From Egibacteraceae bacterium (GTDB taxonomy: Bacteria; Actinomycetota; Nitriliruptoria; Euzebyales; Egibacteraceae), in the NCBI GenBank assembly GCA_030447925.1, contig JAUJNX010000001.1, positions 832,973 to 896,972 of the forward strand: 64,000 bases of DNA, written 5' to 3'. The translations under genes and the position numbers were made by a program. Below, piece after piece: positions 219 to 39,710 of this stretch. The notes under the pieces were generated by a model. The model made no database searches. It was given only the letters and a program-made list of their open reading frames with translations, and was not told where the DNA came from. Numbering within the stretch: the stretch's first letter is position 1; every line of letters begins with the position of its first letter.

Positions 219-500
219 TCAGTGCTCCTCCGGCTCGTGGGGCTGGTCCCCGGCGAGCTGCAAGTGGGTGGTGCGGCGCGCCGCGGTCTTCGGGCGCGAT
301 CGGGTCAGGGCGGGGCCGGCGGCACGGGAGCGCGCCTGGAAGTCGGCAACCAGGTCGACGACCTCCTCGAGCGACTCGGTGACGAGGTAGGAGTTGCCGT
401 TGGCCATCGTCACGACGGTGTCCGGCGTCTCGTCGAGACGCTCGATCTGGTCCTCGTTCAACCCGATGCGGCTGCCGTCGAGCCGCGTGAGCAGGATCAC
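219..500 (-). CDS. flbD: FlbD family flagellar protein
   Basis: This 93-residue protein starts MILLTRLDGSRIGLN and contains ETPDTVVTMANGNSYLVTES, the compact beta-rich FlbD/SwrD pattern. Family members are small soluble proteins encoded beside motA and flgE; SwrD in Bacillus raises stator power, and the role here is inferred. The last 30 or so residues are basic and proline/alanine-rich, longer than the usual family core of about 60-70 residues. GTG is chosen as start because AGGAGAGG lies just upstream. It is the first gene after the promoter at 531-558 and is followed by motA after 3 nt. Confidence 0.85.
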   Translation of the reverse strand: MILLTRLDGSRIGLNEDQIERLDETPDTVVTMANGNSYLVTESLEEVVDLVADFQARSRAAGPALTRSRPKTAARRTTHLQLAGDQPHEPEEH

Positions 501-599: not shown

Positions 600-1751
600 T
601 CAGGCCCCCAGCGCGGCCGCCAGAGCCGCGGCGACGCGGTCCTGGTCGTCGGGGTCCAGGTCGACCGAGCTGGGCAGCGACAGCCCGCGGGCGTACAGGT
701 CCTCGGCCACCTCGCCGCCCAGGCGCGGGGCAGCGCGGTACGGGGCCTGGCGGTGCAGCGGCGGCCACACGCGGCGGGCGGTGACACCCGCCGCCGCCAG
801 CGCGTCGGCGACTGCGTCGGGTCCCGGCCCGCCCGCGGCCAGCAGGACCGAGTACAGCCAGGCCGAGGGGGTGGTCCCGGCGGGTCGCGGCGGCGGCTCC
901 AGCGCCAGCCCGGCCAGCGCGCGGTCGTAGCGCTGCGCCACGGCCCGCTTGGCGGTCAGGAACGCGGGCAGCAGCTCCAGCTGGGCGACGCCCAACGCCG
1001 CCGCCAGGTTGGTCAGCCGGTAGTTGTAGCCCACGTCGTCGTGCACGTAGCCGCGCCCGGGCACCTTCGCCTGGGTCGTGAGGTGGCGCACGCGCCCGGC
1101 GATGTCGCCGTCGTCGGTCACCACCATCCCGCCGCCGCCGGTGGTGATGACCTTGTTGCCGTTGAAGGAGAAGCAGCCCGCGTCACCGGCGGTGCCGACC
1201 TGGCGGCCCGCCAGCGGCCCCGCCGTCCACGACGCGCCCAGCGCCTCCGCGGCGTCCTCCACGAGCGGGATCCCGAAGCGGGCGCGCAGGTCCAGCAGCG
1301 GCTCCAGGTCGGCCGGGGCTCCCAGCACGTGGACGGCCTCGATCGCCGACGGCAGCGGCGCGCCGCGGGCGGCGCGGTCGCACACCGCCTCGTGCAGCCG
1401 GGCGGCGTCCAGGTTCCAGCTGGAGCGCTCGCTGTCCACCAGCCACGGCTGCGCGCCGGTGTAGGTGACCGCGTTGGCCGAGGCGATGAAGGTGAAGGCG
1501 GGGACCGCGACGTCGGTGCCCGGGCGCGCGCCCACCACCCGCAGCGCGACGTGCAGCGCGGCGGTGCCGCTGGCGCAGGCCACGGCGTGGCGGGCGCCGA
1601 CGGCCGCGGCGAACGCGTCCTCGAAGCGGGCGACGAACGCCCCCACCGACGACACCTGGTTGTCCTCCAGGCACTGGCGCAGGTAGCGCTCGGCGTTGCC
1701 GCGCAGCGAGGGGACGGCCAGGGGGATCGGCCGCGGCGCGACGGCGCTCAC
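600..1751 (-). CDS. legC: DegT/DnrJ/EryC1/StrS aminotransferase, LegC-like
   Basis: A 383-residue PLP-dependent sugar aminotransferase. Visible marks are CASGTAALHVAL (cofactor phosphate region), VEDAAEALGA (aspartate facing the pyridine ring) and SFNGNKVITTGGGGM with the Schiff-base lysine. In the legionaminic acid route LegC aminates C4 of the 4-keto-6-deoxy GDP-GlcNAc intermediate made by LegB. GTG at 1751 is chosen because it overlaps the legB stop by 4 bp, like every other junction in the operon. It is the last gene of the operon; flbD and its promoter follow. A related aminotransferase of another nucleotide sugar cannot be excluded, but the neighbours give a nearly complete leg pathway. 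Confidence 0.88.
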   Translation of the reverse strand: MSAVAPRPIPLAVPSLRGNAERYLRQCLEDNQVSSVGAFVARFEDAFAAAVGARHAVACASGTAALHVALRVVGARPGTDVAVPAFTFIASANAVTYTGAQPWLVDSERSSWNLDAARLHEAVCDRAARGAPLPSAIEAVHVLGAPADLEPLLDLRARFGIPLVEDAAEALGASWTAGPLAGRQVGTAGDAGCFSFNGNKVITTGGGGMVVTDDGDIAGRVRHLTTQAKVPGRGYVHDDVGYNYRLTNLAAALGVAQLELLPAFLTAKRAVAQRYDRALAGLALEPPPRPAGTTPSAWLYSVLLAAGGPGPDAVADALAAAGVTARRVWPPLHRQAPYRAAPRLGGEVAEDLYARGLSLPSSVDLDPDDQDRVAAALAAALGA

Positions 1752-2740
1752 CGGTGGTACCGGGCGGCCTCGGCCGGCTCGACGCGACCGCGCAGCCATG
1801 CCGCGGTGCGCGCCAGCCCCTCCTCCAGGCCCACCGAGGGCGACCAGCCCAGCAGCGCCCGTGCGCGCGCCGGTTCGGAGCGCAGCACCTCGACCTCGCT
1901 GCCGTCGCGGCGCACCCGCTGCGGGTCGGTGACGACCCGCGCCGAGCTGCCCGTGACCGCGGCGCACAGGCCGACCAGGTCCCCGACGGACACCGCACGG
2001 CCGGTGCCCAGGTGCACCACAGAGCCGGGGGCCAGGTCCGCGGCGGCCAGGCGCACGAAGCCGTCGACCGTGTCCTCGACGTAGGTGAAGTCGCGCTCGG
2101 GGCGCAGGTTGCCCAGGTGCAGCTCCTCGGCGCCGGCCAGCATCTGGCCGAGCACCGTGGGGATGACCGCGCGGGCGGACTGGCGGGGCCCGTAGGTGTT
2201 GAACGGCCGCAGAGTGACCGCCCGGGTGCCGAACGACCGTGCGTAGGCCTCGCAGAGCTTGTCGGCGGCGATCTTGGACGCCGCGTACGGCGACTGGGCC
2301 TGGAGCGGGTGGTCCTCGGTGATCGGTACGGAGCGCGGGGTGCCGTAGACCTCGCTGGTCGAGGTGTGGACCAGGCGCGTCGCGTGCTCGCGGACCGCCT
2401 CCAGCACGTTCAGCGTCCCGCCGGCGTTGACGTCGAGGAACGACGCGGGGGCGGTGTAGCTGTAAGGGATGGCGACCAGGGCCGCGAGGTGGAAGACCAG
2501 GTCGCTGCCGGCCACGACCTCGCGGACCAGCCGGGCGTCGCGCACGTCGCCGCGCACGACGTCGACCGCCGCGCGCTGGGCGGGGCTCATGCCGTCCAGC
2601 CAGCCCAGCGACCCGTCGGAGGTGTACAGGCACAGCGCGCGCACGCTCGCGCCCTCGACCAGGAGGCGGTCGACGAGGTGGCTGCCGATGAAGCCGTCGG
2701 CCCCGGTGACCAGGGTGACCGTCCCGGCCAGCGCGCTCAC
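1748..2740 (-). CDS. legB: NAD-dependent nucleotide-sugar 4,6-dehydratase, LegB-like
   Basis: A 330-residue extended short-chain dehydrogenase. The Rossmann motif TGADGFIGSHL lies near residues 12-22 and the catalytic YAASK follows an STSEVYG segment. It is expected to oxidise C4 and remove C6 oxygen of GDP-GlcNAc, the first committed step toward legionaminic acid. GTG at 2740 overlaps the ptmE stop by 4 bp and legC starts in its own stop codon. Substrate preference (GDP rather than UDP sugar) is inferred from the neighbouring PtmE-type nucleotidyltransferase, not from residues I can read. Confidence 0.87.
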   Translation of the reverse strand: MSALAGTVTLVTGADGFIGSHLVDRLLVEGASVRALCLYTSDGSLGWLDGMSPAQRAAVDVVRGDVRDARLVREVVAGSDLVFHLAALVAIPYSYTAPASFLDVNAGGTLNVLEAVREHATRLVHTSTSEVYGTPRSVPITEDHPLQAQSPYAASKIAADKLCEAYARSFGTRAVTLRPFNTYGPRQSARAVIPTVLGQMLAGAEELHLGNLRPERDFTYVEDTVDGFVRLAAADLAPGSVVHLGTGRAVSVGDLVGLCAAVTGSSARVVTDPQRVRRDGSEVEVLRSEPARARALLGWSPSVGLEEGLARTAAWLRGRVEPAEAARYHR

Positions 2741-3822
2741 GACAGCCCCCGTGCCCGGGCCAGGTCCGCGGGGCGCCCGACGTCGGTCCACTCGCCGGTC
2801 AGGCGCCAGACGTGGACGGGCTCGCCCCGGCGCAGGCAGTCCTCCAGCAGCGCGGGCAGCGGGAAGGCGGCGCCGGCGGGGACGCGGTCCACCAGTGACG
2901 GGTCCAGGACGTAGATGCCCGCGTTCACCGTCCAATGCGCGGCGGGCTTCTCGCGCAGGGCCACCAGGCGCTCGCCGTCGGTCTCGACCACGCCGAAGGG
3001 CAGCTCGTGGACGTGGTCGCCGACGGCGATGGTCGCGGGCGCGCCGCTGGCGGCGTGGCTGGCGAGCAGGTCGCCGACGTCGAACTGGGTGAGCAGGTCG
3101 GCGTTCATCACCAGCATGGGGGTGTCGGGCAGCAGCCCCGCGCCGCGCAGCAGGCCCAGCGCCCCACCCGTGCCCAGCGGCCGGTCCGGGTCCTCCCGGA
3201 CGTAGGCGATGGAGCAGCCGAACGCCTCGCCGTCGCCGAAGTGCTCCTCGATGATGTCGCCCAGGTAGTTGACGGCGAGCACGACGCGGCGGATCCCCTG
3301 GCCGACCAGGTGCAGGACCAGGCGCTCCAGCAGCGGTCGGCCCGCGACGCGGACCATCGGCTTGGGGAGGGCGTCGGTGAGCGGGGCGAGCCGGGTGCCC
3401 CGGCCGCCCGCCATCACCACCGCGCAGTTGGCGCGCTCGACGGCGCCCAGCAGCTCGCGCAGCACGTGCAGCCCGCGCAGGCGCCCGTCGGGGTCCACCA
3501 CCGGGATCTGCCCCAGCGAGCGCGCGCGCATGAGGTCGAGGACCTCGGCCCGCCCCGCGCCGGGTCCCGTCACGACCGGCGCGCGCCCCAGGTGGGGCCC
3601 GACGGGATCGTCCAGGGCCGCCCCGCCCAGCAGCGCCCGGCGCAGGTCCCCGTCGCTCACCGTGCCCACCAGCCGGTCGTCGTCGTCCACGACCAGGGCG
3701 ATCTCCAGCGCACCCCGGTCGATGGCCGCCATCGCATCGCGGATCGTCGAGCCGGCCTCGGGCAGCGTCAGGCGGGCCAGGGCCTGCGGGCCCGCGGTCC
3801 TCTCCGCTGCGGTCGTGGTCAC
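2737..3822 (-). CDS. ptmE: CBS-domain sugar nucleotidyltransferase, PtmE-like
   Basis: About 361 residues in two parts. Residues ~10-130 hold two CBS repeats (ALVVDDDDRLVGTVSDGDLRR and QIPVVDPDGRLRGLHV regions). The rest is a nucleotidyltransferase with the signature MAGGRGTRLAPLTDALPKPM. This layout is that of Campylobacter PtmE, which makes a GDP-glucosamine-type sugar for the legionaminic acid branch. GTG at 3822 is preferred over an upstream ATG because it overlaps the inferred true end of legG by 4 bp. The CBS part suggests allosteric control by nucleotides, an inference from the family. Confidence 0.85.
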   Translation of the reverse strand: MTTTAAERTAGPQALARLTLPEAGSTIRDAMAAIDRGALEIALVVDDDDRLVGTVSDGDLRRALLGGAALDDPVGPHLGRAPVVTGPGAGRAEVLDLMRARSLGQIPVVDPDGRLRGLHVLRELLGAVERANCAVVMAGGRGTRLAPLTDALPKPMVRVAGRPLLERLVLHLVGQGIRRVVLAVNYLGDIIEEHFGDGEAFGCSIAYVREDPDRPLGTGGALGLLRGAGLLPDTPMLVMNADLLTQFDVGDLLASHAASGAPATIAVGDHVHELPFGVVETDGERLVALREKPAAHWTVNAGIYVLDPSLVDRVPAGAAFPLPALLEDCLRRGEPVHVWRLTGEWTDVGRPADLARARGLS

Positions 3823-5057
3823 GCGCGCGCCTCCAGTTCCGCCGGCACCGCGTCGCGCGGAGGTGGCGCCGGCCACGACCCGCCGCCGGGCGCCGCGGCC
3901 CCGGCGGCCTCGGCGGGGGGCGGCTTGATCGTCAGGGCGTCCAGGTCGGCCGCGGCCAGGAGGCGGGCGATCCGCGGGGCGGCGTGGCCATCGCCGTAGG
4001 GGGAGCGGGCGGCGGCGGCGAGCGCCCGCCCGGCGGGCGACAGGGCGGTGGCGAGGGCGGCCGCGACCGCGCCGGCCTCGGCCTAGGCGTGCAGCACCGT
4101 GGGCCGCCGCAGGCGCCCCCGCTGCCGGTCGCCCACGTCGACCGTGGGCGTGCCGAGCGCGGGCGCCTCGATGATCCCGGTGGAGGAGTTGCCGACAACC
4201 GCGTCGGCGGCCGCCACCAGGCTGAGGTAGCGGCGCTGGCCCAGCGACGTGCGGGTCGCGGTCGGCCCCGTGCGGCGCGACGCCCAGCGGTCCAGGCGGG
4301 CCGCGATCGCCCTCCCGCCGGCGTCGGCGCCCGGGTGCGTGGCCACGACGGTGGCGTCGGGGTGGCCGTCGAGCGCGCCCAGCACGGCGTCCAGTCCCGC
4401 GGCGGGCGGCTCGCCGAGCGTCGCCGGGTGGTAGGTGACCACCAGGGTGGGGCGGCGCAGGGGGACCCCGAGGTCCTCCTCCAGCGTGGCCCGCGGCAGG
4501 GGGTCCAGGCCGTGCACCTCGTCCAGGCCCGGGGCCCCGACCACGTGGACGCGGGCGGGATCCTCCCCGAGGGCTACGACCGCGCGGGCGAACGGCTCGG
4601 CGGCGACCAGGTGGAGCGCGGCGACCTTGGTGAGCGCGTGGCGCAGCGCGTCGTCGACGGCGCCCGCGGTCGTCTCGCCGCCGTGCAGGTGGGCGACGGG
4701 CACGCCCGCGAGGTGGGCCGCCAGGGCGGCGCCGAGGGTCTCGTAGCGGTCGCCGAGGACCAGCAGCACGTCGGGGGCGATGCGCCGCAGGGCGGGGGCG
4801 ACGCCGATGAGGACCAGCCCCATCGAGGTGGCCGCGCCCACCGCGGTGTCGCTGTCGAGCAGGACCTCGACGCGCTCGTCGACCGCCAGGCCGTCCGCCT
4901 CGATGGCGGCCACCGTCGACCCGTGCCCCGGCGCCAGGTGCGCGCCGGTGACCAGCAGGCGGGAGGTCACGCCCTCGGCGGCCAATGCGCGCAGCACGGG
5001 CCGCAGCAGGCCGTACTCCGCGCGCGTGCCGGTCACGGTGCAGACCGTCCGGGTCAC
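3819..5057 (-). CDS. legG: NDP-sugar hydrolysing 2-epimerase (NeuC/LegG family), interrupted by an in-frame TAG
   Basis: The N-terminal 324 residues carry GTRAEYGLLRPV, GDRYETLGAALAAHLAGVPV, HLHGGE and VGNSSTGIIEAPALGTP, the marks of the NeuC/LegG epimerase that releases the nucleotide and inverts C2. A TAG stop (4083-4085) ends the frame at TVLHA. Past it the same frame continues with SPYGDGHAAPRIARLL, the normal NeuC C-terminal motif, and ends at a TGA (3819-3821) that overlaps the ptmE GTG by 4 bp. The gene therefore carries a single nonsense codon, either a sequence error (GAG to TAG would fit) or a real mutation that would block the pathway. About 412 residues if read through. Confidence 0.88.
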
Positions 5058-6109
5058 CGGGGCGCTTCCGCGTGCAGGACGTCGGCGGCGGTGATGGGGT
5101 CGCCGGCCGCCACCGCCGCGGCCAGCCGCAGGCCTGCCAGCGGGGTGGCCGGCGGCAGGCCGGTGGCGGGGCGCAGGGCGACCACGTCGGCGGCGGTGAG
5201 GGCCTGGCCAGGGCGCAGGGCCCGGGCGGCGTGCAGGCTGCGGCGCACCGCGGCGAGGTTGGCGGCCTCCGATGGCATCGGCCGCTTCACGCCGTCGCCG
5301 AGGGCCGCCTCCAGGTCGCGGACCTGCCGGACGTAGGCTGTCAGCCCCGGGGGGTCGGCGGACGCGCGGTGGTCGGGCCCGCGCCGCCCGCGGTCCAGCG
5401 TGACGTGCTTCTCGAGCAGCGCCGCGCCCAGGGCGACCGCCCCCAGCGCGGTGGTCGCCCCCTCGGTGTGGTCCGACCAGCCGACCGGCAACCCGAAGCG
5501 GGCGGCCAGCGCCGGGATCACGCGCAGGTTCGCCTCGGCGGCCGGGGCGGGGTAGGCGGAGACGCAGTGGAGCACGCAGCGGCCCGGCGCGGCGCCGGTG
5601 GCGGCCAGCGCCGTGGCCACCTCCTCGCCGGTGGCCATCCCCGTCGACAGCAACAGGGGCAGGCCCCGCCCGGCGAGGTCGCGCAGGAACGCCAGGTTGG
5701 TCAGCTCACCGGAGGGGACCTTCAGGGCCGGGACGCCCAGGGCGCAGAGCAGGTCGGCGCTGGCGGGGTCGAAGGGCGTGGACAGGAACAGCAGTCCGCG
5801 CTCCCGCGCGTGGGCGGCGAGCTCGGCCCACGCTCCGGGGGGCAGCACCAGTGCGCCGAGCAGTCCCCGCTGGCGGTCCTGCCCGGTCGCGCCGGCCTGG
5901 TAGGCGGCGGTGGGCGCCGCGGCCGAGGCGAGCAGGTCGGGCGCGAAGGTCTGGAACTTGACCGCGTCGGCGCCGCAGTCGGCCGCGACGTCGACGAGCC
6001 GGTGGGCCAGCCCCTGGTCGCCGTCGTGGTTGACGCCCGCCTCGGCCACGATCAGGCAGGGCCGGCCCGGCCCGATCTCACGGTCGGCGAGCGCTAGGAG
6101 CGCCGTCAC
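5054..6109 (-). CDS. legI: N-acetylneuraminate/legionaminate synthase family, LegI-like
   Basis: A 351-residue NeuB-family synthase that condenses phosphoenolpyruvate with the 6-carbon amino sugar to form the nine-carbon acid. Motifs: VAEAGVNHDGD near the start, DAVKFQTF, LSTGMAT, GWSDHTEG and EKHVTLDRGRRGPDH. The C-terminal ~65 residues (from RSLHAARALRPGQALT) form the SAF/antifreeze-like domain typical of NeuB. GTG at 6109 overlaps the upstream stop by 4 bp. NeuB, PseI and LegI are hard to separate by eye; the neighbouring LegB/LegC/LegG/PtmE set favours LegI. Confidence 0.9.
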   Translation of the reverse strand: MTALLALADREIGPGRPCLIVAEAGVNHDGDQGLAHRLVDVAADCGADAVKFQTFAPDLLASAAAPTAAYQAGATGQDRQRGLLGALVLPPGAWAELAAHARERGLLFLSTPFDPASADLLCALGVPALKVPSGELTNLAFLRDLAGRGLPLLLSTGMATGEEVATALAATGAAPGRCVLHCVSAYPAPAAEANLRVIPALAARFGLPVGWSDHTEGATTALGAVALGAALLEKHVTLDRGRRGPDHRASADPPGLTAYVRQVRDLEAALGDGVKRPMPSEAANLAAVRRSLHAARALRPGQALTAADVVALRPATGLPPATPLAGLRLAAAVAAGDPITAADVLHAEAPR

Positions 6110-6774
6110 CGTTCTGGACTTTGCGTAGCTGGCACGCCACGCACAGTAACACCCGCGGGGACGTCGCTCACCACCACGGCACCGGCTGCGACCACCGCGC
6201 CGTCGCCCACCCGGCGCCCGGGCAGGACCACGGCCCCGGCGCCGACCAGCACGTCGCGCCCGCAGTGCACCCCGCCCGCCAGCACCGCCCCGGGGGCGCA
6301 GTGGCTGCGCGGGCCGAGATCGGCGTCGTGCTCCACCACCGCCCCCGTGTTGACCACGCACGCCCTGCCCACGCGGGAGCCGGGCCCGACGTGAGCGTGC
6401 TCCAGCACCACCGTGCCCGATCCCAGGGCGGCGTCGGCGGCCACCGTCGCGGTCACCGCCACCAGCGGGGGGAGTGGGACCTGGGCGGCCTCCAGGTCGA
6501 CCACCAGGCGCTCCCGAGCGTGGGCCGCGCCCATGCCGAGCAGGGCGGCAAGGTCCCGTCGGCGGGCGAGCGCCGCGGCGATGCCGTCGTCGGCCAGGAG
6601 CAGCGGTGCGGGGCCCCCGCGCGCCGCCCACGCCGCGCCGGCCGCGCCGCCCGCTCCGCCCCCCAGCACCGGGTCGCTGACGACCACGATCCGCCAGCCC
6701 GCCCGCCGGGCCGCGTCGCCGACCGAGCGGGCGTGGCCGCCCGCGCCGAAAAGCACCACCGCCGGACCCGTCAC
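6106..6774 (-). CDS. legH: NeuD/LegH-type sugar N- or O-acetyltransferase
   Basis: A 222-residue protein of the NeuD/PglD family. It begins VVLFGAGGHARSVGDAA, a small Rossmann-like substrate domain, and continues with hexapeptide repeats of a left-handed beta helix (GSGTVVLEHAHVGPGSRVG, CAPGAVLAGGVHCG, VLVGAGAVVLPGRRVGDGA). Members use acetyl-CoA to acylate the 4-amino group of bacillosamine-type sugars (PglD, LegH) or O-acetylate sialic acids (NeuD). No other acetyltransferase is present and LegH is needed between LegC and LegG, so LegH is the better reading. Overlaps its neighbours by 4 bp on both sides. Confidence 0.82.
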   Translation of the reverse strand: MTGPAVVLFGAGGHARSVGDAARRAGWRIVVVSDPVLGGGAGGAAGAAWAARGGPAPLLLADDGIAAALARRRDLAALLGMGAAHARERLVVDLEAAQVPLPPLVAVTATVAADAALGSGTVVLEHAHVGPGSRVGRACVVNTGAVVEHDADLGPRSHCAPGAVLAGGVHCGRDVLVGAGAVVLPGRRVGDGAVVAAGAVVVSDVPAGVTVRGVPATQSPER

Positions 6775-7430
6775 CCGGCCAGGACCCGCGCCAGCGCCAG
6801 GCCCACCGCGTCGTCGACGTCCACGGACCGCTCCGCGGGCATGACCACCGCGGCGGTACGCGGTCCGACCAGCGCCCCGCCGGCGCGCAGGTGATCCGCC
6901 CGGGCGGCGTAGACCGCCCCGTTCAACTGGTAGGTGGGGGCCACATCCTGGCGTCGCGAGGCCATGCGCTCCCAGCCGAGCAGGGGCTCCAGCGCGCCTG
7001 CCGGCCCCGCCCGGAACAGCCACTCCGGTGGGTGGGGCGTGGGGGACACCGTCGCCGCGGCGGGGGCGCCGGCCAGTGCCCGCAGGCAGGCCACGACGTC
7101 CTGGGGGGCCCGCAGCGGCGAGGTCGGCTGCAGCAGCACCACGCGCACGACGCCGGGCCGGCCAGCCAGGACGTCTGCCACGACCGCGGCGGTGGGGGTG
7201 GCGTCACCCGCGAGGGACGGGTCCCGCCGCAGCGCGGTGGCACCCGCCCGCGCGGCCTCCGCCAGGATGTCCTCCCCGTCGGAGGACACGACGACCTCGT
7301 CCAGGCCGGGCACCTGGTGAGCGACGTCGACGGCGCGGGCCACCAGCGAACGACCGCCGACCTCCGCGAGGTTCTTGCCGGGCAGGCCGCGCGAGCCGCT
7401 GCGAGCCGGCACGAGCGCCAGGGTCGTCAT
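6771..7430 (-). CDS. legF: CMP-nonulosonic acid cytidylyltransferase, LegF/NeuA-like
   Basis: A 219-residue cytidylyltransferase starting TLALVPARSGSRGLPGKNL, the CTP-binding signature of NeuA/PseF/LegF enzymes, followed by VVVSSDGEDI and LLQPTSPLR. It activates the nine-carbon acid to its CMP form, the donor for glycosyl transfer. It is the first gene of the seven-gene operon. ATG at 7430 lies about 9 nt after the predicted -10 box, so the operon mRNA probably has little or no 5' leader. Confidence 0.88.
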   Translation of the reverse strand: MTTLALVPARSGSRGLPGKNLAEVGGRSLVARAVDVAHQVPGLDEVVVSSDGEDILAEAARAGATALRRDPSLAGDATPTAAVVADVLAGRPGVVRVVLLQPTSPLRAPQDVVACLRALAGAPAAATVSPTPHPPEWLFRAGPAGALEPLLGWERMASRRQDVAPTYQLNGAVYAARADHLRAGGALVGPRTAAVVMPAERSVDVDDAVGLALARVLAG

Positions 7431-7439
7431 TACTCACAG

Positions 7440-7467
7440 TCGATACAAGATCTCACAACGTTGTCAA
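7440..7467 (-). promoter_or_regulatory. Sigma-70-like promoter of the leg operon
   Basis: Minus strand: a perfect TTGACA (7467-7462), 16-nt spacer and TATCGA (7445-7440). The -35 hexamer overlaps, on the opposite strand, the TCAA box of the divergent sigma-28-like promoter, so the two promoters share bases. Confidence 0.55.
7455..7464. promoter_or_regulatory. Perfect 10-bp palindrome between divergent promoters
   Basis: ACAACGTTGT lies between the -35 and -10 boxes of the leg promoter and touches the TCAA box of the opposite promoter. Its place fits an operator that could control both directions. No regulator is visible nearby, and a 10-bp palindrome can arise by chance. Confidence 0.35.
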
Positions 7468-7491
7468 GACCCCCCGCCGGACTGCCGAACA
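7464..7491 (+). promoter_or_regulatory. Sigma-28-like promoter of the helical-repeat gene
   Basis: TCAA (7464-7467), a 16-nt spacer and GCCGAACA (7484-7491) match the motif before the flagellin and flgE genes. Predicted start near 7498 leaves a 30-nt leader with an AAGGAG ribosome site. Confidence 0.6.
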
Positions 7492-7527
7492 CCGACCGGG
7501 TCCGACGCGACGACCCAAGGAGCAGGC

Positions 7528-8661
7528 GTGGACGAGTTGGCCCAGGCCCGGGCGGCGCTGGCCGCCGGGCGCCCGGCGTTCGCCCTGGAGCACCTGTCCG
7601 CCGCGGCCGAGACCGCGGGCCCCGACGAGCAGGCCGCGGCCATGGTCCTGGCCGCCGAGGTCAACCTGCGCCTGGACCGGCCGTACGAGGCGCTGGACTG
7701 GGTGGCGCGGCTGCGTGACACCGCGGGCCCCTCGGACCGGGCCGACCTGCTGGAGGCCAGCGCCCGTGTGGCCGTCGGGGACGGCAACACCGCCCTGGGC
7801 CTGCTCGACGGGCTCGACGAACCCGGCGCGGGGGAGGGCGGACCGGGGGCCGCCGCCCGCCTGGTCCTGCGCTCCCGCGCGCTGAGCCTGGTCGGCCGGA
7901 CCACCGACGCCGCCGCCGCGGTGCTCGCGGCGCTGCGCGAGGACGACGGCGACCCCTACGCCTGGGGTCAGCTCGCGGCCGTGCTCGCGCGGGAGCCCGT
8001 CGAGCCCGTACCGGTCCCCGACCTTCCCGGCGACCGCCTTCCCGAGGCCGCGGAGGCGCTGCTCAGGGCCCCCGCAGCCGGCGCCGACCGGGTGCTGGAG
8101 GCGCAGTGGGTCGCCGGGGCCCAGCGCTCGCGGGTGATCGCCGTGGTGGCCCACCTGGGCGCCGACCTGCCCCTGACCCGCGCCCTGGAGTGGTCCGCGC
8201 GCATGCGTGCCGCGGGCCACCCCGAGCACTGCCCCCTGCTGGGCCTGGCCGCCAACCGCGGCCGGCCCGCACAGGAACGGTTGCGTGCGGCGGCCGTCAC
8301 CGCCGCCACCTTCGGCGACCCGCGGGCGGCGTCCCTGGCCGAGCTGGCGGCCAACGACCTGCCCGTGGACCTGCTGGTGCCCGCACTGGACGAGCTGGCC
8401 GCCCTGGCGCCCGACCTGCTGGAGGGCTTCCTGGAGGTCGCCGCGGCCACGCGTCCCGACCGCGCCCTGGTGCTGGCCGCCGCGCTCGCCGACCGCGACG
8501 CCGCCGGCGCCGCCGCCGCGCTCGCCCGCCATGCGGTGGCACTGTCCGGGGGCGACGCGGCGGTGCTCGCCGGCGCCGGCCTGCCCGCGGCGCGCATGAC
8601 GGCCCTGGCCGGCCTCGCCGGTGAGCCGGTCCTGGCGGCGGCCGGACTGCTCGTACGCTGA
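7528..8661 (+). CDS. Helical-repeat (TPR-like) protein of unknown function, flagellar regulon candidate
   Basis: A 377-residue, alanine/leucine-rich all-helical protein. Degenerate 34-residue TPR-like units are visible in the first ~150 residues (ARAALAAGRPAFALEHLSAA; AEVNLRLDRPYEALDWVARL). The C-terminal half looks like shorter helical repeats. There is no signal peptide, membrane helix or glycosyltransferase motif. GTG at 7528 follows AAGGAG by 5 nt. It lies between the leg operon and the FlmG-like gene and has a sigma-28-like promoter, so it is probably made together with flagellin. A flagellin-binding chaperone or a partner of the glycosyltransferase are options; neither is shown. Confidence 0.7.
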   Translation: MDELAQARAALAAGRPAFALEHLSAAAETAGPDEQAAAMVLAAEVNLRLDRPYEALDWVARLRDTAGPSDRADLLEASARVAVGDGNTALGLLDGLDEPGAGEGGPGAAARLVLRSRALSLVGRTTDAAAAVLAALREDDGDPYAWGQLAAVLAREPVEPVPVPDLPGDRLPEAAEALLRAPAAGADRVLEAQWVAGAQRSRVIAVVAHLGADLPLTRALEWSARMRAAGHPEHCPLLGLAANRGRPAQERLRAAAVTAATFGDPRAASLAELAANDLPVDLLVPALDELAALAPDLLEGFLEVAAATRPDRALVLAAALADRDAAGAAAALARHAVALSGGDAAVLAGAGLPAARMTALAGLAGEPVLAAAGLLVR

Positions 8662-8674
8662 CCGGTTCCTGCGG

Positions 8675-10402
8675 CTAGCGGGCGGCGCGGGCGCGCAGGT
8701 CGTCCGCCACCGCCGACATGGGCGCGTCCCACGGCTCGTTCCACGCGCGGGGGAAGCGCCGCAGCGTGGGCATCCACGGCCAGTGCGGCGTACCCAGCGC
8801 CAGCGGGTCGGCCAGCGACAGCATCAGCGACGGCCGCCCCAGCGCACCGGCGAGGATCGCGGGGGTCGTCCCGACCCCGACGACCACGTCCAGGCAGCTG
8901 GTCAACGCCGCCAGCTCCTCGAAGTCGTCGGTGTAGTCGACGTCGTCCCAGCGGTGCACCCGCACGCCGGTGCGGTCCTCCACCTCGGCCAGTTCGGCCT
9001 CGCGTGCGTCCGCGGCGCCGTACTGGAGGTTCACGAAGGTCACGCCCGGCGTGGCCAGCACGGGATCCCACTCGGCCAGGGTGGTGTAGTGGTGGAGCCG
9101 GTCGACGGCGAGGTTCATGCTCCGCCAGGAGATGCCCACCGTCAGGCGACCCCCGAGCTCCGCCAGGCGGGCGCGCCAGCGCGGCTGGCGGGCGGGGTCG
9201 GCCAGCAGGTAGCCCGTGCGGTCGGGGAACGAGGCCAGGTCGGTGCGGAACAGGCGCGGCAGCGACCCCGCCGGGCAGTGCGCGTCCACGTCGTCGGTCA
9301 CCCCCGCGGGGAAGGGGCGCACCTCCGCGGTCGGGAAGGAGCGGGCGAACAGGCGGGTGAGGCGGGGGTCACACAGGAGCACCACCGCCCCGGCGCGGGC
9401 CAGCGCGTCGGGGTAGCACGAGGCCAGCCGCAGTTCGTCCCCCACGCCCTGCTCCCGCCAGATCAGGACCCGCCGGCCGGTCTCCCCCTCCCAGCGCGCG
9501 ACCGTGGGCTGCCGCCCGGCTCGGCGCCCGCCCGTGGACAGGCCGTGCTCGAACAACTCCCAACCCTGCGCCAGGTCGCCGCTGCCGAGGGCAGCGAAGG
9601 AGCGGTTGTACCGGAGGCCGAGGTCGCCGGGCGCCAGCGCCTCCGCGCGACGCAGCAGCCGCGCCGCCTTGGAGAAGTTGCCCATGCGCAGCTCCACCAG
9701 GCCCAGGTTGTTGAGCAGCGAGGCGCTGTCGGGACGCAGCGCCGCGGCACGTGCGAAGCACTCCCGGGCGACGTCCAGCGCCCCCACCGACAGCACGACG
9801 TTGCCCAGGTCCAGATGCACCTGCGCGTCAGCCGGCGCGAGCCGGGCGGCCGCCTCCAGTTCCGGTAGCGCCTCGACCACCCGGTCCTGGGCCGCCAGCG
9901 CGGTACCCAGCTCCCGATGCGCCAGCCAGGTGGGCGCGGCGCGCAGGGCGCGGCGCGCCGTGCCCACCGCCTCGTCGAACTTGCCCTGGCCGCGCAGGAG
10001 CTGGGCCAGGAGCACCAGTGCCGGCGGGTGGCCGCCGTCCGCCGCCAGCGCCTCGCGGCATGCGGTCTCGGCCGCCTCGGCCCGGCCCGTGGCCCCCAGC
10101 GCGACGGCCCGCCGGTAGGCGTCGGTCCCGGGGCGGTCCTCCACCGTCGCCCCTGTCTCGCCCATGCCCTCGATCACGTCGGCGAGTTCCCGGCGCTGTA
10201 CCAGCAGCAGTCCGAGGAGGCGCAGGGCGTCGGGGTGGTCGGGCTGGGCGGTGAGCAGCGTGCGGTAGCCGCGCTCGGCCTCGGCCAGACGCCCGTCGGC
10301 GTGGTCGCGCACGGCCGAGGCCAGGCGCTGCTGGGCGCCTGACGGGCGCGCGGGGGGCGGGGACGGCCGCCCGCGGGGGCGCTGGCGGTTGGCGCGCGAC
10401 AT
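8675..10402 (-). CDS. TPR-glycosyltransferase fusion, FlmG-like flagellin glycosyltransferase
   Basis: 575 residues in two parts. Residues ~25-290 are TPR repeats (AEAERGYRTLLTAQPDHPDA, NNLGLVELRMGNFSKAARLL). Residues ~310-575 are a GT-B-like domain with WREQGVGDELRLASCYPDAL, resembling the WxEQGxGD element of TPR-linked GT9-like proteins, and VVGVGTTPAILAGALGRPS near the nucleotide-binding end. Caulobacter FlmG has the same order: TPRs bind flagellin and the GT domain adds a nonulosonic acid. It lies between the leg operon and flagellin, facing away from the latter. Its -10 box (TAAGTT) is 6 nt before the ATG, so the mRNA may be leaderless. The specific activity is inferred. Confidence 0.8.
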   Translation of the reverse strand: MSRANRQRPRGRPSPPPARPSGAQQRLASAVRDHADGRLAEAERGYRTLLTAQPDHPDALRLLGLLLVQRRELADVIEGMGETGATVEDRPGTDAYRRAVALGATGRAEAAETACREALAADGGHPPALVLLAQLLRGQGKFDEAVGTARRALRAAPTWLAHRELGTALAAQDRVVEALPELEAAARLAPADAQVHLDLGNVVLSVGALDVARECFARAAALRPDSASLLNNLGLVELRMGNFSKAARLLRRAEALAPGDLGLRYNRSFAALGSGDLAQGWELFEHGLSTGGRRAGRQPTVARWEGETGRRVLIWREQGVGDELRLASCYPDALARAGAVVLLCDPRLTRLFARSFPTAEVRPFPAGVTDDVDAHCPAGSLPRLFRTDLASFPDRTGYLLADPARQPRWRARLAELGGRLTVGISWRSMNLAVDRLHHYTTLAEWDPVLATPGVTFVNLQYGAADAREAELAEVEDRTGVRVHRWDDVDYTDDFEELAALTSCLDVVVGVGTTPAILAGALGRPSLMLSLADPLALGTPHWPWMPTLRRFPRAWNEPWDAPMSAVADDLRARAAR

Positions 10403-10408
10403 GCACCG

Positions 10409-10414
10409 AACTTA
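10409..10414 (-). promoter_or_regulatory. -10 box of the FlmG-like gene, leaderless start
   Basis: TAAGTT on the minus strand ends exactly 6 nt before the ATG at 10402. A TTGAGC further up (10439-10434) shares bases with the flagellin promoter's TCAA, but the 19-nt spacing is long. Confidence 0.45.
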
Positions 10415-10435
10415 ACGGACAAATGAGATGACCGC

Positions 10436-10463
10436 TCAAGTACCCCGGGGGAATCCCCGATCC
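10436..10463 (+). promoter_or_regulatory. Sigma-28-like promoter of flagellin
   Basis: TCAA (10436-10439), 16-nt spacer, CCCGATCC (10456-10463). It leaves a leader of about 65 nt with GGAGG before the flagellin ATG. The -10 element matches the one before flgE in 7 of 8 bases. Confidence 0.6.
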
Positions 10464-10535
10464 CCTTGTCTGCCGGCATGACGTCGGCGGACCCGGGAGT
10501 GCCGGGTTCCTAAGGGTCCAGGAGGACGACACCCA

Positions 10536-11351
10536 ATGCGCATCAACCAGAACATCGGCGCGTTCAACGCGTACCGGAACCTGTCGGTCACCAACAACAA
10601 CATGAGCAAGTCGCTGGAGAAGCTGTCCAGCGGGTTCCGGATCAACCGGGCCGCCGACGACGCGTCGGGCCTGGTCCGCTCCGAGGGTCTGCGGGCGGAG
10701 ATCGGCGGCACCAAGGTCGCCATCCGCAACGCCCAGGACGGCATCAGCTTCGTGCAGACGGCAGAGGGCGCGCTCGAGGAGGTCCACTCCATCCTCCAGC
10801 GCATGCGCGACCTCGCGGTCGGCGCCGCCAGCTCCACCTCCGACGGCGTCGCCGAGCAGGCCGAGTTCGACGAGCTCAGCAACGAGCTCACCGCCATCGG
10901 CTCGCGCACCACCTTCAACGGCAAGGAGATCTTCGGCGAGAGCGCCAGCTTCCACGTCGGCGCCGGTTCCGGCAGCACCAACGCGGTCACCGTCACCGTG
11001 ACCGGTCTGAGCGCCGGAGCGGTCGGCGCCGACGGCGTCAGCCTCAGCGCCGTCTCCCTGTCCACCGACTCGGGCGCCGCGTCGGCCATCGCCACCCTGG
11101 ACTCGGCCATCGCCAGCGTCTCGACCGAGCGCTCGACGCTGGGTGCCACCCAGAACCGGCTTGAGTCGGCCGTCCGCAACCTGTCGGTCGCGGCCGAGAA
11201 CCTCTCCGCGGCGGAGTCGCGCATCCGCGACACCGACATGGCCGAGGAGATGGTGAAGTTCACCCGCAACCAGATCCTCCAGCAGGCCGGCACGGCGATG
11301 CTCGCCCAGGCCAACCAGGCGCCGCAGAGCGTCCTGTCCCTGCTGCGCTAG
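10536..11351 (+). CDS. fliC: Flagellin
   Basis: A short flagellin of 271 residues. The N-terminal D0/D1 part (MRINQNIGAFNAYRNLSVT, LSSGFRINRAADDASGL) and the C-terminal part (RIRDTDMAEEMVKFTRNQIL, ending SVLSLLR) are canonical. The variable middle, residues ~135-190, is small and rich in Ser, Thr and Gly, the likely surface and a natural site for O-linked sugars. Flagellin is exported by the type III apparatus and polymerises under the FliD cap. It has its own sigma-28-like promoter, a GGAGG ribosome site and a strong hairpin before fliD. The position next to the FlmG-like gene makes it the presumed glycan acceptor. Confidence 0.95.
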   Translation: MRINQNIGAFNAYRNLSVTNNNMSKSLEKLSSGFRINRAADDASGLVRSEGLRAEIGGTKVAIRNAQDGISFVQTAEGALEEVHSILQRMRDLAVGAASSTSDGVAEQAEFDELSNELTAIGSRTTFNGKEIFGESASFHVGAGSGSTNAVTVTVTGLSAGAVGADGVSLSAVSLSTDSGAASAIATLDSAIASVSTERSTLGATQNRLESAVRNLSVAAENLSAAESRIRDTDMAEEMVKFTRNQILQQAGTAMLAQANQAPQSVLSLLR

Positions 11352-11424: not shown

Positions 11425-13307
11425 ATGTCGTCGCCGCTGTTCTCCGTGGGTGGGCTCGCGTCCGGGTTGGACACCTCGGGCATCGTCAAGCAGCTGCTGC
11501 AACTCGAGCGCCAGCCGGTGGTCCGTCTCGAGCAGCGGCAGGCCGAGCTGCGCAAGGTCAACGACGCCTGGGGTCAGATCACCACCAAGCTGTCGGCGCT
11601 GCGGACCGCCATCGACAAGATCGGCAAGCCCGGAGCGCTGGCCCCCACCAAGGTCTCGTCCTCCAACGAGGCCGCCGTGGCGGTGACCGCGAACGGGACG
11701 GGCACACCGGGTGAGGTGTCGTTCACGGTCACCCGGCTGGCGACCTCGCACCGCATCCAGGCGGGGGGGAGCTTCGCCTCGTCCACCGCCACGGTGGGCG
11801 CCGGCACGTTCGCCCTGGTCGACAGCACCACGGGGGCGCAGCTGTTGTCGGTGGAGACCACCGACACCACCACGGTGGAGCAGCTGGCGGCCCAGATCAA
11901 CGCCGCCGACGGGGACATCAGCGCGCAGGCCCTGAAGGTCGCCGACGGCGACGTGCGCCTGCTGGTCACCGCCGGGGACACCGGCGCGTCCGGGTCGTTC
12001 GCGGTCGGGTCCGCCCCGGCGGCGGGCGGCTCCACGACCGTCCTGACCGCGGGGGTCGACGCGTCGCTGCAACTCGGGTCGCTGGAGGTCACGCGCTCCT
12101 CCAACACCATCGACGACCTGCTGCCCGGCGCCACCGTCGAGCTGCGCGCCGTCACCGCCGGCCCCGTGACCGTGCGCACGGAACGCGACACGGCCGCGAC
12201 CGTCGCCACCGTCAAGGGGCTGGTCGACGCCCTCAACGGCGTGCTGTCCACCGTCAAGGACCTCTCCTCCTACGACGCGGCCAGCAAGAAGGCCAAGCCG
12301 CTCCAGGGCAACGACACCGCCCGGCGGCTGGCCACCGATCTGCGCGCCGCGGTCTCGGGCACGGTCGCGGGCCTCACCGGCCCGATCAGCACCGCGGGCT
12401 CCATCGGCATCGAGCTGGACCGCTACGGCGCGATCACCTTCGACGAGGCGGTGTTCACCAAGGCCCTGGCCGACAACCCGGAGGGCGTGACGGCGCTGTT
12501 CAGGCGCGCGGGCTCCAGCTCCGACGCCCGGGTCCGCTACATCACCTCCAGCGACCGCACGACCGTCGGCGACCACACCCTGGACGTCACGCAGGCCGCG
12601 CTGGTGGCCTCCGCCACCGGGTCCGCCTACTCGTCGCCGAACGGGCAGGACCGGATCTTCACGATCACCACCGGCGGCCAGGCCGTCACCGTCACCGTCG
12701 AGAAGAACGCCGCCCTGGCGACGGCGGTGACGCGGATCAACGACGCGCTGCGGCTCAACGGCGTGACCACGCTCACGGCCACCGAGGCCACCGTGGGCGG
12801 CCAGGGCGTCGTGCAGCTCAGCGAGAGCAGGTACGGCACCGCCGGCAGCTTCTCGGTGGCGAACTCGGGCGACTTCGGGCTGGACGGCACCCACGCTGGC
12901 GTCGACGTCGCCGGCACCATCGACGGGGTCGCGGCCACCGGGTCGGGCACCCGCCTGACCGGGACCTCCGGCCCGGGGACCGGGCTGGTGGTCGAGGTCA
13001 GCGGGGCCGACGTGACCGGCCTGGGGCCCGTGACCGTCGTCGGGGGCTCGGCGGGGCGCTGGAGGGCGTCCTGCGCTGGGCGGAGGGCGACCGGAGCTCC
13101 TCCGACGCCGCGGTGGCGGCGGGTGCGGTGGGCCGCGCCCGCACCACCCTCAGCGACGAGATCCGCCGGTTCGACCGCCGCATCGACGACTACGAGCTGC
13201 GGCTCGTCTCGCGCGAGAAGACCCTGCGGCACAAGTTCTCCGCGCTGGAGTCCGCCCTGGCCCGCCTGCAGAGCCAGGGCGACCGCCTGGCCGGCCAGCT
13301 CGGCTGA
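11425..13307 (+). CDS. fliD: FliD flagellar hook-associated cap protein, frameshifted near 13050
   Basis: FliD forms the cap under which flagellin assembles. The N-terminus (FSVGGLASGLDTSGIVKQLL) is the classic FliD_N start. The frame runs to about 13050, where it would lose the C-terminus. One missing base restores a coiled-coil C-terminal end that stops at 13307 and includes HKFSALESALARLQSQ, the FliD_C signature. Total length would be about 627 residues, larger than many FliD proteins because of a Thr/Ala-rich middle region. The ATG at 11425 follows AAGGAGGGAG. fliS would normally follow, but an insertion island now separates it. Confidence 0.9.
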
Positions 13308-14325
13308 CAGTGAGGATGGGCGGCAGCCTTCGTGCTGGCCGGGTCTGACCCTTCGCCTGACTGACTTCGGGTCTTAAAGCCGATCTGTCGGCCCGTGCTG
13401 GTGGGGGCTGTCGCACCTGCCGGACGGGCGGGGTGACCTCATAGCGCCTCTATGTCAAGCCGGGTAGTGCGGGGAGGCGCTGGTCGTGGCGGAGGCGGCG
13501 GTAGATGACGTTGGCGAGGTGCCGTTTGACGCTGCGGAACGCCTCGGTCTCGGTCTTGTGTTCGGCGAGCTTGCGGCGGTAGTGGCGGCGTCCGGCGGTG
13601 TCGTGATTGAGCTGGGTGCGCGCGATCAGGTGCAGCGCGTTGTTCAGCGAGCGGTTGCCGCCGCGGTTGAGGCGGTGGCGGCGGACGTCGCCGCTGGAGG
13701 TTTCGATCGGGGCGGTGCCGGTGTAGCTGCCGTAGTGGTTGCTGGTGGGGAAGCGGGTGACGTCGCCGGTGTGGCCGATGATCTTGGCGGCCAGGACCTC
13801 GCTGACGCCGAACAGCTCGGTCAGCCGGGTGCCGCTCGCGGCGACCGCCTCGGCGCAGCGTTTGCGGTTGCGCCGCAGCGCCTCGTCGAGGCGGCGCAGG
13901 TCGGTGAGCAGCTCGCGGGCCATCAGCTTGCGCTCGAGCGCGACGGCGTCGCCGGGGCGGATCCGCGCCAGCAGCGCGGCGGCGCGGTCGGCGGACAGCG
14001 ATCGCGCGGCGCCGCCGGGGTGCAGGTCGCGCAGCAGCACGTGGAGCCGGTTGACGGTGCGGCGTCGCTCCTCGTTGAGGTCGTCGCGGCGGTCCGCGAG
14101 CAGCCGCAGCACCGCGGTGTAGTCGTCCCGGGCGACCTGACGCAGCCCAGCGTTGCGCACCGCCACCACCGCGACCGAGGCGGCGTCGACGTCGTCAGTC
14201 TTGCGGCCATGGCCAGTGTCCAGCAGCCGTGCGCGGGCGGCCAGCTTGGCGGGCACGTCCACGACCGTCTCGCCGGCGGCGACCAGCTGCTGGGCGAGCA
14301 GCCGGCCCAGCCCGTTGGCGCCCTC

Positions 14326-15124
<799 letters not shown>

Positions 15125-15289
15125 CTCGACCGCCCAGCGCCGCTGCGGCCAGGGGGCCGCCCAGTCCAGCAGCCGCCTCACGGCGGCGGTGCCGGCGGGA
15201 ACGCGCAACTGCTCCATGACCTGGCCGCGGTCGTTGACGGCGGCGGCGGTGTGACTGGCCTTGTGCGGGTCGATGCCGATGGTGATCAT

Positions 15290-15624
15290 GGGTGCGGCTC
15301 CCCTTCGGTTGCTCATCGGGTGGGAGTCCGCGACGGACAACCTGAATTTCAGGGACGGTTCACACGCCTCTATCGAGTCACGTCGCGGCAGACGCCGACC
15401 CGGTTCGCACGCTATGAGCCAGCCAGCCTCTCCCAAGGCGGCAAGGAGCCTGCGGGCCAGCCGGGGCGGCGTCCTGAGCACGCTACGAGGCTGCAGACCT
15501 CAACGGCCTACCCGCATCCAAACAAGTCAGGAGCCTGGCTAGAGGCCCCGTCACTGTCTTGTCCGCCCGCCCGGCCGGCGGGTGCCGCCCTCACACAGAC
15601 GAGACAAGGGACGGCACGCCCACG
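15290..15624. other. Noncoding gap between two divergent IS110-type genes; possible bridge RNA region
   Basis: No convincing protein gene is seen. IS110-group elements carry a structured bridge RNA in the noncoding end next to the transposase start, so this stretch, upstream of both transposases, is where one would be expected. A small palindrome (CCTGAATTTCAGG) lies near 15340 and the CGCCTCTAT repeat at 15365. I could not fold the region into a specific bridge RNA model. Confidence 0.35.
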
Positions 15625-16701
15625 ATGACAGCCTTCATGGGGACGGTCCAGGCAGCAGCGGCGACACGGGTGACCGCAGGTGTGGACACTCACGGCGACG
15701 CCCACACCGCCGCGGCGGTAGACGACGCGGGCCGGGTGCTGGGCTCAGCCCAGTTCGACGCGGACGCGGCCGGCTACGCGGCGCTGCTGGCTTGGCTGCG
15801 CGGGTTCGGGAAGCTGGTGTTGGTCGGGGTCGAAGGCACCGGCGTCTACGGCCGCGGCCTGGCCGCCCACCTGCACGCGGAGGGCATCGCGCTGGTCGAG
15901 GTCGACCGGCCCGACCGCAAGACCCGCCGCGCGCACGGCAAGTCCGACCCCATCGACGCCGAAGCCGCCGCCCGGGCCGCGCTGGCCCAGACCGCTGCCG
16001 GCGTCCCAAAGCAGCGCGACGGCCGAGTGGAGGCGCTGCGAGCGCCGCGCGTCGCACGGCGCTGCGCCGTCGCTCACCGCGCCGACACCCAACGGCGGAT
16101 CAAGGCGCTGGTGGTCACCGCCCCCGAACCGCTGCGCCAGACCCTGCGCCACCTGCCGACCCGCCAGCTGATCGCCACCTGCGCCGCCACCCGCCCCGAC
16201 ACTGGCCGCGTCGACGACCCGACGGTGGCGACCAAGGTCGCGCTGCGGTCCCTGGCCCGCGCCCACCAACGGCTGGGCGTCGACATCGACGAGCTCGATG
16301 CGCTGATCGGCCCGCTCGTCGCGGCGATCAACCCGCGGCTGCTCGCCCTCAAAGGCGTCGGCCCCGACGTCGCCGGGCAGCTGCTGGTCACCGCCGGGGA
16401 GAACACCGACCGGCTGCGCAGCGAGGCCGCCTTCGCCATGCTCTGCGGCGCCGCTCCGCTGCCCGCCTCCTCCGGCAAGACCACCCGCCACCGGCTCAAC
16501 CGCGGCGGCGACCGCCACGCCAACAACGCCCTGTGGCGCATCGTCATCACCCGCCTGGGCACCGACCAGCGAACCCGCGACTACACCGCCCGCCGCACCG
16601 CCCAAGGCCTCAGCAAGACCGAGATCATCCGCTGCCTCAAGCGCTACATCGCCCGCGAGGTATTCACCGTGCTCGCAAACCGTCACCCCAATCCCGCTTG
16701 A
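15625..16701 (+). CDS. IS110-family transposase, apparently intact
   Basis: 358 residues. The RuvC-like DEDD domain starts VTAGVDTHGDAHTAAAVDD and continues VGVEGTGVYGRGLAAHL and AHGKSDPIDAEAAARAAL. The Tnp_20 domain follows (LLALKGVGPDVAGQLLVTAG, HRLNRGGDRHANNALWRIV). IS110 enzymes carry out RNA-guided recombination without typical inverted repeats. The gene differs clearly from the split copy at 13450-15289 on the other strand, so these are two different elements. The region after the stop (CTTGACAACCATAGGAGC) resembles the end of the other copy (CTTGACATAGAGGCGC) and may mark the right end. Confidence 0.93.
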   Translation: MTAFMGTVQAAAATRVTAGVDTHGDAHTAAAVDDAGRVLGSAQFDADAAGYAALLAWLRGFGKLVLVGVEGTGVYGRGLAAHLHAEGIALVEVDRPDRKTRRAHGKSDPIDAEAAARAALAQTAAGVPKQRDGRVEALRAPRVARRCAVAHRADTQRRIKALVVTAPEPLRQTLRHLPTRQLIATCAATRPDTGRVDDPTVATKVALRSLARAHQRLGVDIDELDALIGPLVAAINPRLLALKGVGPDVAGQLLVTAGENTDRLRSEAAFAMLCGAAPLPASSGKTTRHRLNRGGDRHANNALWRIVITRLGTDQRTRDYTARRTAQGLSKTEIIRCLKRYIAREVFTVLANRHPNPA

Positions 16702-16749
16702 CAACCATAGGAGCATCGGGCCCCCGGCGGGTGGCCGCCGGGGCCCGCC

Positions 16750-18148: not shown

Positions 18149-18523
18149 ATGAACCCGTACGCGCACAGCAGCTATCAAGCGCAGGCCGCCGAGACGGCCG
18201 GGCCGGCCCAACTCGTCCTCATGCTCTACGACGGGGCCCTGTCCGCGGTCGCCCGCGCCCGCCAGGCGCGCGACGTGCAGACCATCCACCGGGAGCTGGT
18301 CAAGGCCCAGGACATCGTGACCGAGCTGTCGGTCACCCTGGACCGCGAGCGCGGCGGCCAGGTGGCCGCGGGGCTGGCCGCGCTCTACGACTTCTGCCAG
18401 GACCGGCTGGTGACGGCCAACCTGCGCAAGGACACCACCCCGCTCGGCGACGTGAGCGCGGTGCTGAGCGACCTGCGCGAGGCCTGGGACGAGGCGTGCG
18501 TGCAGGCACCCGCGGGGCCGTGA
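18149..18523 (+). CDS. fliS: FliS flagellin export chaperone
   Basis: 124 residues starting MNPYAHSSYQAQAAETAGPA, the conserved FliS N-terminus, followed by LVLMLYDGALSAVARARQA. FliS binds the C-terminal tail of flagellin in the cytosol and keeps it monomeric until export. The gene would directly follow fliD if the insertion island were removed. The start ATG is fixed by the NPYAHSSYQ motif. Its stop overlaps the GTG of the next gene by 4 bp. Confidence 0.93.
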   Translation: MNPYAHSSYQAQAAETAGPAQLVLMLYDGALSAVARARQARDVQTIHRELVKAQDIVTELSVTLDRERGGQVAAGLAALYDFCQDRLVTANLRKDTTPLGDVSAVLSDLREAWDEACVQAPAGP

Positions 18524-39606: not shown

Positions 39607-39641
39607 CGCCGTGGGCTACGCTGGCGGAGCCGGCAGGTCCA

Positions 39642-39710
39642 TGGGAGGTGGTGAAATGGCATCACGTCGTCCTTGGAGTCGAAGTTGAAGGTTCGATCCC
39701 TTCCTCCCAG
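39642..39710 (+). tRNA. tRNA-Gln (UUG), with two apparent single-base gaps
   Basis: The acceptor arm TGGGAGG, D arm GTGA-AATGGCA-TCAC and T arm GAAGG-TTCGATC-CCTTC fold well. The anticodon loop reads CTTGGA, only 6 nt; one more T gives CTTTGGA with anticodon TTG (Gln). The 3' acceptor strand has CTCCCA, one C short of pairing fully. Both gaps fall in short homopolymers. tRNA-Gln between ispE and glmU is the known actinobacterial order. CCA is not encoded. Confidence 0.85.

Follow-up and report, generated by a model that had tools for sequence, protein, structure and literature searches.

A legionaminic acid-type operon beside a FlmG-layout glycosyltransferase in an actinobacterial flagellar gene cluster: a probable flagellin glycosylation island

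An Egibacteraceae bacterium (Actinomycetota; assembly GCA_030447925.1, contig JAUJNX010000001.1, positions 832,973 to 896,972, a stretch of 64,000 nucleotides referred to below as the window) carries a legionaminic-type sugar island within its flagellar gene cluster. The leg-type genes probably make legionaminic acid activated with cytidine monophosphate (CMP), or a close stereoisomer of it, and a glycosyltransferase preceded by tetratricopeptide repeats (TPR-GT), laid out like FlmG, is likely to transfer the sugar to flagellin, with a free-standing TPR-like protein likely assisting. After the tests reported here, the island is best read as a leg operon whose sugar a transferase of FlmG layout puts on flagellin, given its location, the TPR plus GT-B structure model, the placement of LegI and the single NeuB-type gene. 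Our confidence is good, and was lowered by a hair because the LegI tree leaves some leg-linked synthases ununited. The genes concerned are as follows.

600..1751, minus strand: LegC-type aminotransferase dependent on pyridoxal phosphate; TIGR04181 (LegC) 372.8 bits, cut-off 420; PseC 227.7 bits
1748..2740, minus strand: LegB-type NAD-dependent 4,6-dehydratase; TIGR04180 (LegB) 393.4 bits, cut-off 475; PseB 47.6 bits
2737..3822, minus strand: PtmE/LegX-type protein; Pfam layout of CBS plus NTP_transferase; no NCBIfam model above cut-off
4083..5057, minus strand: LegG-type hydrolysing 2-epimerase of NeuC type, with an in-frame TAG; TIGR03568 (NeuC_NnaA) 348.7 bits, above the cut-off of 235.9
5054..6109, minus strand: LegI-type nonulosonate synthase (NeuB family plus SAF); NeuB_NnaB 333.6 bits (cut-off 399.65), PseI 231.2 bits; placed by a tree
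6106..6774, minus strand: LegH-type hexapeptide acetyltransferase (NeuD family); TIGR03570 158.2 bits, cut-off 160.8
6771..7430, minus strand: LegF-type CMP-sugar synthetase; Pfam CTP_transf_3; PseF is the highest-scoring NCBIfam model (91.3 bits; cut-off 205.7)
about 7528..8661, plus strand: free TPR-like superhelix protein, proposed flagellin-recognition partner; structure model predicted from 7531, 23 helices
8675..10402, minus strand: FlmG-layout TPR-GT, 575 aa, with TPR at about 22-288 and GT-B at about 305-575; domain matches and structure model
10536..11351, plus strand: flagellin, 271 aa, proposed acceptor region at about 135-186; Flagellin_N and Flagellin_C, Ser/Thr profile

The seven leg-type genes run head to tail on the minus strand, from 7430 down to 600, in the order LegF-LegH-LegI-LegG-PtmE(LegX)-LegB-LegC. 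As assembled, 4-bp GTGA stop-start overlaps join them at five junctions, and the sixth (LegG/PtmE) is also a GTGA only if the LegG frame is followed to its end. LegB, LegC, LegH, LegI, LegF and PtmE/LegX types are all found in this one operon, and a pathway to legionaminic acid would be expected to have just this combination of a LegB type, a PtmE/LegX type and a LegG of NeuC type. PMC13317340 names PtmE/LegX in this role. A pseudaminic pathway in the window was rejected, with PseB at 47.6 bits versus 393.4 for LegB and PseC at 227.7 versus 372.8 for LegC. Only one NeuB-type synthase gene is found in the genome at E<=1e-20. Following the usual order of the legionaminic pathway, PtmE/LegX would supply a GDP-sugar for dehydration by LegB, amination by LegC and acetylation by LegH, after which LegG would hydrolyse and epimerise, LegI would condense the product with phosphoenolpyruvate and LegF would activate it with CMP, so that the seven genes would yield the CMP-activated sugar or its close stereoisomer.

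The structure model of the TPR-GT (mean predicted local distance difference test, pLDDT, 92) has an N-terminal TPR superhelix followed by a C-terminal GT-B domain, which bears out the TPR-glycosyltransferase fusion of FlmG layout proposed in a first-pass annotation of this DNA; the TPR-like protein that it placed beside the operon is likewise present, and an all-helical superhelix is predicted for it (pLDDT 92.7). Genetic linkage of the TPR-GT to flagellin and a nonulosonate pathway is seen in the window and in all four named actinobacterial loci that carry it. The VIA rows for the TPR-GT single out no nonulosonyl transferase, an absence that is uninformative there. Taken with the model, the linkage suggests that the TPR-GT moves a nonulosonic acid, in the cytoplasm, onto Ser/Thr residues in the middle of the single flagellin found; the GT domain would choose the sugar and the TPR part the protein, while the free TPR-like protein likely helps to hold flagellin.

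The four actinobacterial loci, L050 (Acidimicrobiia KatS3mg009) and three from metagenome-assembled genomes (MAGs; L053, RYN_52; L038, RYN_51; L067, F1-120-MAGs023), have the TPR-GT beside flagellin and FliD, with pseudaminic genes in place of the leg genes. PseB exceeds its cut-off of 407.75 in L050 (455.9 bits) and L053 (476.2), PseC exceeds its cut-off of 423.5 in L050 (424.7) and falls below it in L053 (408.5), and both genes also occur in L067 and L038. PseG-like and PseF-PseH-like genes are found in L067, in L050 and in L114, a second contig of the L038 genome, truncated at its end. The NeuB-type synthases of L050 and L053 score higher with NeuB_NnaB (357.8 and 358.8 bits) than with PseI (320.2 and 329.6), all below cut-off, so the models do not name these synthases; the margin of NeuB_NnaB over PseI, 38 bits in L050 and 29 in L053, is larger in the window (102) and in L068 (124), the locus of Oceanibaculum pacificum. 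In L067, HisF/HisH-like and amidotransferase-like genes, recognised by eye, lie between PseC and a PseF-PseH fusion (7528-10146), as if pseudaminic acid were amidinated there; the amidotransferase-like gene has no Pfam match.

Phylogenies of the synthase and of the transferase bear on the same question. In the LegI tree the window sequence falls in a clade of 55 (support 0.941) that also holds synthases from three loci of the same class with leg operons; it lies within a 53-member part supported at 0.713 only, and the four PseI of the related islands are set apart (0.999). In the GT tree the window belongs to a clade of 9 (0.993), and the four Pse-linked transferases fall in a separate one of 7 (1.0), although support at the nodes between the two is low to moderate (0.16 to 0.76). 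The sugar appears to have been swapped, legionaminic acid in the window versus pseudaminic acid in the named actinobacterial relatives.

The free TPR-like protein recurs with these islands. It is encoded in all four actinobacterial genomes that carry the TPR-GT with pse genes, directly upstream of PseI in L050, L067 and L114, and a protein search with it found three other relatives, P0123 among them. In the six alphaproteobacterial TPR-GT genomes examined it was not found (0/6), while the same query does match in the phylum search. There, where scoring is limited to 4 to 6 candidates in each genome and counts may be too low, it matches in 3/396 genomes: the window's own, G024 and G266. In G024 two GT2-TPR proteins end in the TPR-like part; the gene of one lies about 5 kb from the fliW of a flagellin-flgK-flgL-fliW cluster, that of the other elsewhere. 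In G266 a 1,500-aa frame (L113, 379-4881, minus strand), one gene away from flagellin-FliD-FliS, combines three GT2 domains, a TPR-like domain and a GT4-like part. These two genomes indicate that the TPR-like protein also occurs without the TPR-GT. All 50 Foldseek matches listed for the free protein are repeat proteins of TPR or a similar kind, and their TM scores stay below 0.5. Kinship with FlmG's own TPR domain was considered; the profile match is weak and partial (probability 55%, E 1.2e-4, 154 columns) and compatible with generic TPR likeness. We propose that the free TPR-like protein is a flagellin-recognition partner or module.

The TPR-GT itself has a markedly uneven distribution. At E<=1e-10 it occurs in 1/66 genomes of the window's class and 1/396 of its phylum, in both cases the window's own genome, versus 98/289 Alphaproteobacteria (the class of Oceanibaculum) at E<=1e-8. 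With thresholds that differ and only the best candidates scored, so that 1/396 may be too low, this contrast suggests transfer from the alphaproteobacterial type. A transferase of that type would have entered Actinomycetota, and its partner sugar would now be pseudaminic acid in the four named loci and legionaminic acid in the window. From named genomes, a scan gave 203 stretches encoding a relative, of which 80 were kept, as 66 loci, with weaker stretches outside the set; the gene-context comparison covers these named loci and leaves out the nearest TPR-GT relatives (P0001-P0013). The 66 loci are mostly from Azospirillum and include the four actinobacterial ones. In L008, L009, L013 and other Azospirillum loci, as many as five TPR-GT domains are arrayed over the two strands, and the DNA fetched there shows no flagellar gene. 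TPR-GT matches also occur in 103/72,556 plasmid records, 47 of them from Azospirillum.

Several observations weigh against glycosylation of flagellin by this island and are best taken together with the alternatives that they favour. LegB, LegC, LegH, LegI and LegF all score below curated NCBIfam cut-offs, and the PtmE/LegX call rests on layout. The flagellin may be glycosylated as proposed, but with a variant of legionaminic acid, either a stereoisomer or a derivative (a 4-epi or 8-epi form, or one with other acyl groups): the LegB, LegC and synthase models matched only below cut-off, and sequence alone does not fix stereochemistry. The expected legionaminic set of LegB, PtmE/LegX and NeuC-type LegG speaks for the parent sugar, and we regard this alternative as rather unlikely. 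Also unfavourable is the position of the synthases linked to leg genes in L068 and in L056, from a marine alphaproteobacterial MAG, which lie outside the 55-member LegI clade. The LegI phylogeny that the first-pass annotation had called for groups the window's synthase with leg-operon synthases of the class and separates it from PseI, and does not unite all leg-linked synthases.

A second difficulty lies in LegG, which as assembled is cut by a TAG at 4083-4085. The frame continues to 3819, 87 codons more, and the segment past the stop matches the C-terminal end of LegG from a relative over 53 residues (E 1.9e-9); third-position G+C stays high after the stop (0.95 versus 0.98 before it), and second-position G+C rises (0.74 versus 0.56). 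The first-pass annotation, right about the content and place of seven overlapping leg-type genes, did not mention this stop. If the TAG were a true nonsense mutation, the pathway would be inactive in this strain and its flagellin bare. Such an outcome would fit a stop that is in frame, with the frame open and homologous beyond it, and the transposase genes that adjoin fliD. However, four other genes of the window are each split across two frames, ispE (38688-39685), glmU (39824-41097), fliI (23680-24461) and fliD (11425-13307), and since ispE and glmU are usually essential, their splitting points to assembly errors. The comparison is partial, as these defects are frame shifts and the LegG TAG is a substitution. 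The TAG may be a true mutation or an assembly error; an inactive pathway seems to us unlikely.

Third, a leg operon need not serve flagella. G050, a genome of the same class that is 98% complete and has no flagellin match, carries one at L115 in the same order (LegF-LegH-LegI-LegG-PtmE-LegC), with no LegB found in the 20 kb fetched around it. The sugar operon alone therefore says nothing about flagella. Its product could go into a surface polysaccharide or onto some other protein of the cell surface, the operon's place among flagellar genes being due to chance, and leg-type synthases are indeed numerous among environmental proteins, some of them named from actinobacteria. Yet the window's operon sits between two flagellar blocks, adjoining the TPR-GT and flagellin, and the four other actinobacterial loci place a TPR-GT and a nonulosonate pathway beside flagellin. 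The first-pass annotation would have given up its proposal had the operon belonged to a surface clade with no flagellar link; one half of that picture is seen in G050, while the window's operon lies within a flagellar cluster. We consider a purely surface role for the operon quite unlikely.

Flagellar genes are found in 19/66 of the kept TPR-GT loci, including all four actinobacterial ones, and in 47/66 a search of the fetched DNA for relatives of the window's proteins gives no flagellar match, so the TPR-GT family is not flagellin-only. That this TPR-GT has a different donor sugar or a different target protein, with a Maf enzyme elsewhere modifying flagellin, is very unlikely: the kept loci without a nearby flagellar gene, chiefly Azospirillum arrays, would allow it, but no Maf model (PF01973, PF20157) matched in the genome, a weak negative as PF01973 matched archaeal controls only, PF20157 matched no control, and no bacterial control matched either.

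The proposed acceptor adds little to the case for flagellin. One flagellin is found in the genome, which is 93% complete; two were considered and rejected, the second Flagellin_N match being FlgL (TIGR02550 191.1 bits, cut-off 127.2). A short flagellin with a Ser/Thr-rich middle, as described in the first-pass annotation, is there, and its middle 52 residues (31% Ser/Thr) rank first among the 26 sequences compared, a set in which one gene is present in several copies. In a genome of the same order, however, flagellins just as short reach 23-30%, which makes the enrichment weak, and it was dropped as proof of an acceptor.

Glycosylation of the single flagellin by the leg operon and the TPR-GT also fits the setting, as flagellar gene blocks lie on both flanks of the island. 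The first gene past LegC is a small FlbD-like gene, followed on the minus strand, outside the window, by motA, motB, fliL, flgN, flgK, flgL, fliW and csrA. The other flank holds flagellin, fliD, transposase genes, fliS, flgB, fliF and further genes.

219..500, minus strand: small FlbD-like protein, named by eye, with no NCBIfam match
11425..13307, plus strand: FliD, with its C-terminal part in another frame (13113-13307)
18149..18523, plus strand: FliS; TIGR00208 102 bits, cut-off 53.75

Between fliD and fliS (13450-16698) there are two transposase genes of IS110 type flanking pieces of HTH_Tnp_1 and rve transposases, and a sortase-domain gene (16683-17093, minus strand) adjoins the transposases. 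At 26001-27000, also in the flagellar cluster, G+C rises to 87%.

More tentatively, and with some doubt on our part, flagellin glycosylation in actinobacteria may be a three-part, sugar-swappable machine, consisting of a transferase of TPR-GT-B layout, which would set the donor, leg or pse gene sets that can replace one another, and a free TPR-superhelix factor that recognises flagellin whatever the sugar and that is fused to GT2 near other actinobacterial flagellin genes. If the proposed system is real, FlmG-type flagellin sialylation extends into Actinomycetota, and the islands form a natural pair with a constant flagellin and transferase architecture and a different sugar pathway, legionaminic here and pseudaminic in the relatives. 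The free TPR-like protein would be a new candidate for acceptor recognition, and two questions would become directly testable: how the transferase discriminates between legionaminic and pseudaminic acid, and how flagellin is chosen as acceptor. Among the papers listed in searches of open-licence PMC, none dealt with FlmG or a legionaminic flagellin sugar in actinobacteria; the novelty first claimed for this combination is narrowed by the TPR-GT beside flagellin, with pse genes, in four other actinobacterial loci.

Those four loci are close parallels: each sets the TPR-GT next to flagellin and FliD, and the free TPR-like protein occurs in all four genomes, but PseB, PseC and other pse genes take the place of the leg genes. 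L068 and L056 resemble the window in having LegB, PtmE, LegG and a NeuB-type synthase beside the TPR-GT; unlike it, they also have PseB and PseC, three GT copies of FlmG layout and no flagellin found within the locus. FlmG of Caulobacter crescentus, as described in PMC7591256, has TPR first and GT-B second in 596 aa and works with pseudaminic acid. The TPR-GT of the window is likened to it by layout, not by sequence, and the two share domain order, length (596 versus 575 aa) and a nonulosonate pathway and flagellin as partners, whereas the window has a leg-type operon and, in addition, the free TPR-like protein. In Brevundimonas subvibrioides, an alphaproteobacterium rather than an actinobacterium, a FlmG-type transferase reportedly does work with a legionaminic pathway (Kint et al., EMBO J, 2023), and we know of no free TPR-like partner there. 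The pairing of a transferase with a free specificity factor resembles, as an idea, the flagellin sialylation by Maf and GlfM said to have been described by Unay et al. (Curr Biol, 2024); GlfM is reportedly a four-helix bundle, in contrast to the 23 helices predicted in the free TPR-like protein, which is not of GlfM type. Set beside these systems, the actinobacterial island, as a FlmG-type transferase with a legionaminic gene set, may be a variation on an already known system, with one component that is possibly new.

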